Assembly (NCBI RefSeq): GCF_000014745.1
Contig: NC_008347.1
Location: 744,001-808,000 of the forward strand
DNA length: 64,000 bases
Direction: 5' to 3'
Origin: Maricaulis maris MCS10
Lineage (GTDB): Bacteria; Pseudomonadota; Alphaproteobacteria; Caulobacterales; Maricaulaceae
A model generated the notes under the pieces. It saw nothing but the letters and a program-made list of their open reading frames with translations, made no database searches and was not told the origin of the DNA. Of the stretch, positions 1,889 through 25,518 are shown piece after piece; position 1 is the first letter of the stretch; each line of letters begins with the position of its first letter. The position numbers were made by a program, and so were the translations under genes.

Positions 1889-1917
1889 CTTGATCAAGGC
1901 GGCGAAACGCAACCTAT
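1889..1917 (+). promoter_or_regulatory. Heat-shock (sigma-32-like) promoter candidate for clpB
   Basis: CTTGAT at 1889-1894 and ACCTAT (in a CCTATCT context) at 1912-1917, 17 bp apart, resemble the alphaproteobacterial RpoH pattern (CTTGAA with a CCCCAT/CCTAT-like -10). The predicted start of transcription would lie about 17 nt before the clpB ATG at 1941. clpB genes are classic RpoH targets. The match is by eye only. Confidence 0.45.
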
Positions 1918-1940
1918 CTCGCCTTTTCCGGGGGATCGAC

Positions 1941-4547
<2,607 letters not shown>

Positions 4548-4575
4548 GACTGCTCGCCGGGCGCATGCGACGAAG

Positions 4576-4609
4576 CTGGGCGGTCGCGAAGGCCGTCCAG
4601 TTTTCTTTT
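4576..4609 (+). terminator. Rho-independent terminator of clpB
   Basis: CTGGGCGG (4576-4583) pairs with CCGTCCAG (4593-4600), with one G-U pair, and is followed directly by TTTTCTTTT (4601-4609). It starts 28 nt after the clpB stop codon. Confidence 0.75.
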
Positions 4610-4642: not shown

Positions 4643-4763
4643 TCTTGGCTTGCCGAGATGGGGCCAAGCGAGGTTCAGCCGGTCAAGGGTGAAACCGCTG
4701 CGCGGCGGCTCTGCCGCCCTTGACCGGCTGAACCTCGCTTGGCAATTGGCTGACAAGCCAAGA
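4643..4763. repeat. Long palindromic element, family A copy 1
   Basis: A nested inverted repeat of 121 bp. The outer arms of 10 bp (4643-4652 and 4754-4763) are perfect. A 10-nt internal loop on each side leads to inner arms of 27 bp (4663-4689 and 4717-4743), which are perfectly complementary and enclose a 27-nt loop. It shares the blocks CTTGCCGAGA (left), TCAAGGG and CCCTTGACC (stem base around the loop) and a GCTGACAAG-like right block with the element at 8590-8708, while most of the stem sequence differs. It cannot simply be the clpB terminator, because that lies just upstream and the element has no T-tract. Confidence 0.85.
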
Positions 4764-8348: not shown

Positions 8349-8589
8349 GTGTATCTCCCGGTCTCGACGCGTCTCGGATCGGCCTGTCACTAACAAGCCG
8401 GACAGCTTGGCAATAGCGAGATCAGACGCGTCGCAATCCCGCTTGGCGCCCATGACAGGCGGCGACCGCGGCCGGCCGGGGACACATACCGTTGTCCCTG
8501 ATGCACTGACCATTCGCCTCCCGAGACGTGGCTGGCTTAGGGAGGAAACAGGTGAAGTTACCGCGCCCGCGGCGCATATTCGGTCATAC
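8349..8589. other. Gene-free stretch before palindrome copy 2
   Basis: Together with the palindromic element at 8590-8708 this makes a 360-bp stretch without a credible gene. It should contain the promoter of the DUF1579-like gene (minus strand, start 8348). No repeat or clear sigma-70 motif was recognised. Confidence 0.5.
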
Positions 8590-8708
8590 ATCACTTGCCG
8601 AGAGACAGCCGTAACCGGTTCTTGAGCTCAAGGGGCATGCCCGCGGAGCGGCGCCTGCGGCGCCCTTGACCTCAAGAACCGGTTACGGCTCGCTAGCTAA
8701 CAAGTGAT
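8590..8708. repeat. Long palindromic element, family A copy 2
   Basis: A nested inverted repeat of 119 bp. Outer arms ATCACTTG (8590-8597) and CAAGTGAT (8701-8708) are perfect. Internal loops of 9 and 10 nt lead to inner arms of 28 bp (8607-8634 and 8663-8690) with one mismatch, around a 28-nt GC-rich loop. The geometry is almost the same as at 4643-4763, and it shares CTTGCCGAGA on the left, TCAAGGG and CCCTTGACC at the loop, and GCTAACAAG on the right; 20 of 24 bases running from the loop into the right arm agree. The rest of the stem is different. It abuts the stop codon of the DUF6896 gene and could end its transcript. Confidence 0.85.
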
Positions 8709-9140
8709 CTATGGACCGCTCCGCGCGTCGCGCGCGGTCCCAGGCGACGGCCGCGAATGATTGCTATTGTTTTCGCTTGTGAATTTAAAGTGTCGGCCGA
8801 CTGGCTTGATGACTGGCACGTCATTGAGCGCTTCAGCAAGTTTTCTGCCGCGGAACAAAATTCCCTGACTCTCCAGAAACAGTTCGAGTCGCCAAGCATC
8901 GAACAGTTCAGGCTTGTCGAAGTTGTCATGGACATCGACGCGGCGGGTACTTGGCTCGTGGGTGAAACACACTCCCGAGCCGTGGCGTCGAAATGTCCAA
9001 TCGCCGGAGGCCACCTTAATACTGCCTGTCGGCGGAGCGTCGGTCAGGACTATGTCGAGGCCGAACAGGCGGCCCCATTCCCTCACAAGTTCAACCTGAC
9101 AGTCGATCAATTCGCGGCAGCTGGACTCGAGGTCGATCAC
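8709..9140 (-). CDS. DUF6896-like protein
   Basis: A 143-residue soluble protein. The middle resembles the DUF6896 family: a WTFRRHGSGVCF segment, a short variable part, then RRVDVHDNFDKPELFDAWRLELFLES. Family proteins are often found as lone genes or near polymorphic toxins, where they may act as immunity proteins; no toxin is seen here. Translation starts at a GTG (9140), 20 nt after the stop of the M23 peptidase on the same strand; no strong ribosome binding site is visible. The C-terminal tail (SRPSPGTARDARSGP) looks unstructured and the stop codon directly touches palindrome copy 2. Family assignment is by pattern recall only. Confidence 0.55.
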   Translation of the reverse strand: MIDLESSCRELIDCQVELVREWGRLFGLDIVLTDAPPTGSIKVASGDWTFRRHGSGVCFTHEPSTRRVDVHDNFDKPELFDAWRLELFLESQGILFRGRKLAEALNDVPVIKPVGRHFKFTSENNSNHSRPSPGTARDARSGP

Positions 9141-25398: not shown

Positions 25399-25518
25399 TT
25401 GTCATCCCTGTCGGATGTCCGGCGAAAGCCGGACGCAGGACAGGGACCTACATGCCTGCAACCAGCTAGGTCCCTGACTTTCGCCCGGCCTGCGCCGGGC
25501 GTCCATCTGGGATGACAA
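25399..25518. repeat. 120-bp three-hairpin palindromic element, family B copy 1
   Basis: The ends are a perfect 10-bp inverted repeat (TTGTCATCCC at 25399-25408, complement at 25509-25518). Inside are a left hairpin (25417-25434, GTCCGGC around GAAA), a central stem CAGGGACCTA/TAGGTCCCTG (25441-25450 with 25467-25476) and a right hairpin (25483-25500, GCCCGGC). It could fold as a cloverleaf or cruciform. GTCATCCC-ended palindromes are common dispersed repeats in alphaproteobacteria. It lies between fliJ and the TonB receptor gene, which end towards each other. Confidence 0.8.

Follow-up and report, generated by a model that had tools for sequence, protein, structure and literature searches.

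A dispersed palindromic repeat family of Maricaulis whose stems are probably rewritten by copying from arm to arm

The window, by which we mean the whole 64-kb stretch of DNA that was analysed, contains two complete palindromes, both with their joints in the + orientation and with their loops in the orientation that we call n. Element 1 (4643-4763, + strand; covariance-model match G000:C1:748635-748770) is located 3' of a long ORF (1890-4547) that we take to be ClpB-like. Its left outer arm of 10 bp (4643-4652) has its partner at 4754-4763, and is followed by a left internal loop of 10 nt that holds the CCGAGA joint (4653-4662), a left inner arm of 27 bp (4663-4689) composed of a free part (4663-4682) and the conserved TCAAGGG (4683-4689), a loop of 27 nt with two GC mini-hairpins (4690-4716), a right inner arm in which CCCTTGA is joined to the free part (4717-4743), and a right internal loop (4744-4753) and outer arm (4754-4763) with the GGCTGACAAG joint. 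The 27-bp inner arms are 100% complementary. Element 2 (8590-8708, + strand; G000:C1:752580-752717) has a left outer arm of 8 bp (8590-8597, partner 8701-8708), internal loops of 9 and 10 nt, a left inner arm of 28 bp (8607-8634), a loop of 28 nt (8635-8662), a right inner arm (8663-8690), and a right internal loop (8691-8700) and outer arm (8701-8708) with the GCTAACAAG joint. Its inner arms are 96% complementary, with a single C.C mismatch formed by the C at 8627, next to TCAAGGG (8628-8634), and the C at 8670, next to CCCTTGA (8663-8669). The script's gene calls place element 2 in an intergenic gap; a mechanical 258-aa ORF (8594-7818) touches its outer arm, and the script did not call a gene there. 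By eye, GC-rich short inverted repeats, assigned to neither strand, stand to the left (8563-8575) and right (8714-8739) of element 2, and a GCGC hairpin flanks each side in many copies of the family, differing between copies.

The original prediction had placed two palindromes of this layout here, with four joint motifs in common and with perfect or almost perfect self-complementarity of the stems, and all of this is confirmed on the sequence: CTTGCCGAGA, TCAAGGG, CCCTTGACC and GCTRACAAG are present in both elements. Its description of the two stems as unrelated goes too far; they have diverged strongly, with 9 of 20 outer stem positions equal, and are two variants among many, element 2 being close to the commonest stem type (GCCGTATCCGGTTCTT...) and element 1 being of a rare type. 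The pattern TCAAGGGN{15,45}CCCTTGA has 2 matches in the window against 0.01 expected from shuffles, and the DNA folding z-scores, also relative to shuffles, are -10.65 for element 1 and -8.60 for element 2. An Rfam 15 scan of the whole window gave 0 matches above the gathering score, and between 4400 and 9300 there were 0 promoter-like sites (0.9 expected) and four terminator-like sites (4.0 expected), none inside either element and one upstream of element 1 (4572-4604). Elsewhere in the window, a 120-bp inverted repeat (TTGTCATCCC...GGGATGACAA; 25399-25518) presumably resembles a CGTC-type REP dimer, judging by eye, and sequences similar to it adjoin some elements (L011, L114).

Elements 1 and 2 belong to a palindromic repeat that is dispersed between the genes of Maricaulis and has a core of about 135 bp. 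A covariance model built from 38 copies detected 42 full copies together with 5 short ones in the organism's own genome (G000, 3.37 Mb), as had been anticipated in the form of many copies with the same geometry; their palindromic form makes 41 of the 42 full copies score on each of the two strands. The consensus runs from CCATAAATCnCTTG through CCGAGAnnn into a 27-column inner stem that extends from GCC to TCAAGGG, and continues with a loop that contains two mini-hairpins, the return arm, CCnGCTGGCTGA and CAAGnGATTTATGG. The geometry of the outer arms, the unpaired joints, the 27-bp inner stem and the mini-hairpins of the loop are conserved across copies; the joint and loop motifs are also kept in sequence, and the inner stem drifts in its outer 19-20 columns. 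Among the open-licence papers that a literature search listed, none describes these Maricaulis repeats in its title or at the start of its abstract.

The model matches 21 of 61 genomes, namely 17 of the 19 from the genus, counting G000 itself, and 4 of the 42 from elsewhere. When the exact motif TCAAGGGN{18,34}CCCTTGA was surveyed across 200 genomes of the order, it was present in 73, and its reversed control in 11, which indicates that many single exact-motif matches are likely due to chance. Its copy number is patchy, ranging from 0 to 50 across the 12 genus genomes drawn, own included (G018 50, G000 38, G010 22, G016 22, G003 18, G015 14, others at most 6, G004 0), with at most 7 copies outside the genus (G177). 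Two f5 genomes of the order, G177 and G092, have 7 and 6 core-motif matches, more than most non-genus genomes, and three f4 genomes of the order also have 6 each. The exact 19-base joint pattern occurs in 111 stretches of named genomes; among the 80 matches listed, 49 are from Maricaulis and those from elsewhere are single each.

Gene context was assessed with our own simple gene caller, allowing edge overlaps of up to 60 bp, for the 35 of the 42 full copies that had enough flank. None of the 35 lies inside a gene called in this crude way, in line with the intergenic placement that had been predicted, and overlaps at gene edges are confined to L014 (49 bp) and L018 (4 and 11 bp). The flanking genes are convergent for 13 copies, divergent for 2, tandem for 17 and undecided for 3. 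Within the genome, 28 of the 42 full copies fall within 885 kb (G000:C1:480000-1365000), a clustering that 0 of 2000 random placements equalled, and this cluster is distant from dnaA, which is near position 443. Inspection by eye of L010, L015, L016, L047 and L114 shows that one flank of several copies holds a GGGACAGACACAATT-like sequence, and that the opposite flank of L010 and of L114 has a CACCATTTTT-containing sequence; these flanking sequences are perhaps part of a larger shared unit.

To assess the pairing of the stems, we compared 38 aligned copies with 500 shuffles and with slid structures. The inner helix is 96.7% paired, with both sides changed in 16 of its 27 pairs and with a one-sided standard change in 0 cells; pairing is looser in the outer helix (87.4%), where one-sided changes are present. 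With both helices taken together, none of the 500 shuffles attains the values observed, and the share of paired cells, 93.5% in the true register, falls to 31-44% when the structure is slid by 1-3 columns. A larger set comprised 135 copies from 14 genomes (137 minus 2 rows with masked bases), for which entry required pairing at 22 or more of the 27 arm positions. It contains 67 different outer left 19-mers, so the expectation of variable stems was borne out. Mismatches occupy 49 of 3510 stem cells, which is a lower bound, since the entry filter misses badly mismatched copies, and 102 of the 135 copies are free of mismatches outside column 20. By type, the mismatches are G.T (12), A.C (13) and other (24). 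A constraint on RNA would favour G.U on one strand, and the lack of any excess of G.T over A.C therefore indicates that RNA pairing is not what is kept.

Comparison of orthologous sites shows how the stems change. At the site of element 1, the left arms in G000, G010 and G018 are GCCAAGCGAGGTTCAGCCG, GCCAAGTGGGGTTCAGCCC and GCCCAGGCAGGTTCAGCGC, each with a perfect partner, and the pairwise differences (3, 5 and 5 of 19 columns) are all on two arms, with 0 on one arm; the match in G018 is long on the left (858 bases at 84%, element included) and short on its other side. The stem of element 2 is identical in G018 (both flanks matching, or one flank only under a stricter filter), and G010 retains a right-half remnant only. 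We extended the comparison to 16 pairs in 11 orthologous groups with both flanks matching, using one genome per species, with species partly shared between groups. The same change on both arms was observed in 13 columns against 0.4 expected if the arms changed independently (416 cells in the 16 pairs), next to 17 one-arm columns; with one pair per group there are 11 two-arm columns in 286 cells, and a smaller set of 10 pairs gave 9 two-arm and 10 one-arm columns. The two arms of an element differ from each other less than orthologues differ in 8 pairs, equally in 8 and more in 0. Thus, arms do gain single changes, yet shared two-arm changes far exceed chance.

One site may have recorded an intermediate. 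The orthologues of L023 differ at columns 9 and 12: either arm reads C, G in G000 and G, T in G010, and the G016 copy combines the two variants, with C, G on the left and G, T on the right. The flank support is one-sided for some of the orthologue pairs at this site. Judged from these sequences, the G016 copy appears to be a transfer of a two-base block from arm to arm that was caught half-way, as template switching would generate. In a set of 113 copies, obtained with the same entry filter (118 minus 5 rows, one being another repeat in G000 and four being loci of other families), 24 of 32 mismatches combine two variants that are each seen at least 3 times elsewhere, so that exchange between different copies may contribute as well.

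The loop provides a second record of change. Relative to the joints, its orientation is n in 78, f in 53 and unclassed in 4 of the 135 copies (in the 113-copy set the script left three copies unclassed). The orientation is associated with the state of column 20, which adjoins TCAAGGG on its outer side: a C.C mismatch is found in 57 copies, all with loop n, and a G.G mismatch in 45, of which 44 are f and 1 is unclassed, so that the column is mismatched in 102 of 135 copies; the remaining 33 copies have G.C (21 n, 9 f, 3 unclassed), and C.G occurs in 0 of 135. A C...C segment that is turned round reads G...G, and the match between mismatch and orientation therefore indicates that the turned segment includes column 20, which places the exchange points in the outer arm or beyond and argues against a recombinase acting at TCAAGGG. 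The loop was inverted in place in 2 of the 11 orthologous groups, with support from both flanks. In the first, L004 (also listed as L085) is f with G.G in G000 and f in its G010 orthologue, and the aligned orthologue in G016, L228, is n with C.C; in the second, the loop of element 1 (4690-4716) is n in G000 versus f, that is, inverted, in G010. The script listed 4 loop-discordant pairs; L012, to which it gave no class and which is f by eye, accounts for two of them, leaving 2 that were counted. A candidate inversion between L010 and L114 was dropped, the copies occupying different places in the same neighbourhood, and the opposite loops of L032 versus L225 and L239 were not counted, with only one flank matching.

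To account for these patterns, we propose a new REP/MITE-like family in which arm-to-arm copying, i.e. template switching, rewrites the stems, a reading to which we assign a probability of roughly two in three on the basis of sequence comparison. The region would become single-stranded at the replication fork and the palindrome would fold, whereupon the polymerase, having copied one arm, would take the other as its template. Any mutation confined to a single arm would then be either erased or passed on to the partner arm, and the arms would stay complementary at any sequence; a switch that ran through the loop would turn the loop round together with the adjacent mismatch. The joints, the loop motifs and the C.C mismatch would be held by selection or through recognition by some protein, and the copies would spread by means of some enzyme or by recombination. 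Although blind copying should erase the column-20 mismatch, most copies have it, and selection or exclusion must therefore be added to the scheme. The original prediction had left template switching or conversion between arms and compensatory selection side by side; arm-to-arm copying fits better, since the in-place inversion of the loop takes a marker base of the stem along with it, and since wobble pairs are not in excess among the mismatches.

The process itself, homogenisation of arms with inversion of the spacer, is already known, and its signature has been published. Excerpts of the relevant papers report that template switching between inverted repeats homogenises arms and inverts spacers in yeast (PMC8604942), and that rRNA hairpins include 6 cases of loop inversion with compensatory change and 69 of loop inversion alone (PMC8794818). 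The hairpins in these excerpts share with ours the homogenised arms, the two-arm changes and the inversion of a spacer between perfect arms. Indeed, the Maricaulis family has the same change on both arms, both in the orthologue test (13 versus 0.4) and at element 1 (3, 5 and 5 of 19), as well as spacer inversion in place (2 of 11 groups), as expected of a hairpin maintained by template switching. The excerpted cases have spacers of 2-5 bp in yeast genes and loops of mostly four, and up to seven or eight, nt in rRNA (PMC8604942, PMC8794818), whereas the Maricaulis family differs from them in its dozens of copies, 27-bp arms, invertible loops of 25-28 nt and retained mismatch. What appears to be new is a high-copy bacterial family that lets template switching act on every copy, with joints and a resisting mismatch conserved.

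Compensatory selection offers a different account of the two-arm changes, in which a DNA or RNA hairpin is needed (as a protein target, or for RNA processing or termination), a single change is borne for a short time, and a second one restores the pairing. The survival of geometry and pairing through 67 stem variants agrees with it, as do the conservation of the joints and of one mismatch, which is what a recognised structure would have, and the location of 13 of 35 copies between convergent genes versus 2 of 35 between divergent ones. However, the near equality of G.T and A.C (12 and 13) means that no RNA strand is favoured, point compensation gives no account of a loop that inverts in place with its column-20 marker, and the arms of the G016 copy of L023 each carry a different two-base variant, as block transfer would give. 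We consider this account improbable, though worth serious attention. Homologous recombination or gene conversion, either between arms or between copies at different sites, could likewise homogenise the stem and invert the loop; copies are numerous in the genome, and several of them resemble hybrids of two stem types, as the 24 of 32 mismatches mentioned above illustrate. Arms of 19-27 bp are, however, short for RecA-type exchange, and recombination of this kind seems to us rather less probable still.

The elements might also be single-stranded mobile hairpins of the REP/RAYT or attC kind, whose structure and joints are recognised and whose stem sequence is free. To this extent the original prediction of presence and absence at orthologous sites held, in that one congener has occupied, remnant and motif-less sites. 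When some of the copies of G000, all with usable anchors, were compared with 40 stretches of 20 kb of G010, the element was in both genomes at six sites (L004, L005, L008, L023, L026, L087), remnants were found at three (L001, L006, L018), and there was no motif in G010 at L003, at both copies of L009, or at L010, L012 and L014 (L011 being ambiguous). In G010, a transposase-like sequence, recognised by eye at about 14.4-15.4 kb of L168, occupies the place expected for the left half of the L001 orthologue. No clean empty sites or target duplications were seen in comparison with G010, where the DNA between genes has diverged too far for ends to be recognised. Four short copies (L118, L119, L120, L122) keep the outer joints and lack about 70-74 bp of the hairpin, a loss that deletion across a folded palindrome would produce; for four of six short or odd copies a parent copy could serve as the model, relative to which 70-74 bp are missing with a 0-3 bp repeat at the junction, and slippage between direct repeats, which we tried as their origin, is weakly supported by so short a junction repeat.

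The search for a mobiliser bears on the same idea. The Y1_Tnp/RAYT domain (PF01797) is found in 5 of 19 genus genomes; it is present in G010 and G003, two of the seven copy-rich genomes, and absent from the copy-rich G000, G018, G015, G006 and G016. Integron integrase (TIGR02249) had no match above the cut-off in any of 19 genus genomes, nor in any of 14 control genomes, and weaker matches below it, of the tyrosine-recombinase kind, occur in all 19. Joint motifs were mapped in all eight neighbourhoods of half-copies; next to two of these (L387, L388) no mobile-element ORF was seen by eye, and the ORFs look ordinary. With element 2 as the query, no plasmid or phage carriage was matched. Thus, of the predicted mobile or structural repeat family, the repeat family with patchy copies stands, and for its mobility we found no mobiliser, target duplication or clean insertion. 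The patchy copy number, the motif-less sites, the conserved mismatch next to the loop, and an outer stem, unpaired spacer and inner stem arranged as in excerpted descriptions of attC (PMC2727003) are points in favour of a mobile hairpin; set against the distribution of Y1_Tnp, the lack of integrase matches above the cut-off (none in the controls either) and the lack of mobile-element ORFs and target duplications, they leave it quite unlikely. Lastly, a programmed inversion, in which a site-specific recombinase at the inverted TCAAGGG/CCCTTGA flips the loop, would explain why strongly conserved inverted 7-mers border the invertible segment, but is hardly credible given that column 20 lies outside the 7-mer and flips with the loop (G.G to C.C at the L004 site), where exchange within the 7-mer would leave it unmoved, and that a loop of 27 nt is very short for such systems.

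The family also has to be placed among known repeats. REP/BIME elements, as described in excerpts of PMC3733652, are likewise extragenic, palindromic, repetitive, mostly 3' of genes and patchy between species, and have units of 20-40 bp with GTAG/CGTC tags, whereas the Maricaulis stem is free. By inspection of the 38 aligned copies, no GTAG is conserved at the stem foot and no CGTC at either stem foot, the joints being CCGAGA and GCTGGCTGA. The core of the attC R and L boxes is RYYYAAC / GTTRRRY, and inspection of the same 38 copies revealed no such boxes, the stem feet being mostly CTTG/CAAG and GCC/GGC. Integron attC sites, in the excerpts of PMC2727003, likewise have an outer stem, an unpaired central spacer, an inner stem with one or more unpaired bases, a variable terminal structure and weak sequence conservation; the Maricaulis copies differ from them in being dispersed between genes and not at the ends of cassettes. 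The comparisons with REP, CGTC REP and attC fail on defining features, and we place the family among the dispersed palindromic repeats as a separate variant. Enterobacterial repeats of the ERIC/RU type are likewise dispersed, small (about 100-170 bp) and intergenic. In those repeats the whole sequence is the family signature, whereas the signature of the Maricaulis family consists of the joints and the loop motifs.

Look-alikes exist in two other families of the order. In genus g25 of one of them there are seven loci, six of them distinct (L107 is the same as L275), at low copy; they share outer joints of their own (GTGTCCGATC and GATCGAAAGAGGCTGGCT-like), have self-complementary stems that differ, and at L270, L272, L273, L274, L275 and L106 have TCAAGGG/CCCTTGA with the loop in both orientations, that of L274 being read by eye. 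In genus g22 of the other, the stems are less perfect. TCAAGGG/CCCTTGA together with a CTGGCT motif is common to the Maricaulis family and to the look-alikes of g25 and g22. More speculatively, there could be a class of DNA hairpins, mobile or used by the host, whose identity resides in the joints, the loop and one favoured mismatch, whose stem can have any sequence and is continually rewritten by arm copying, and whose extruded single strand some protein recognises. We regard this generalisation as doubtful; if it were true, the look-alikes in the two other families would be the same device.

When the two sides of a stem change in a compensatory way, this is usually taken to prove a selected RNA structure. 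Here is a family of dozens of natural stems with strong covariation and no sign of RNA-level constraint, and its loop inversions point to a mutational cause. The family also raises a sharp question, namely why the C.C mismatch withstands a copying process by which most other positions are fixed. Covariation statistics could use the family as a control set, and template switching in bacterial evolution could be measured in it.
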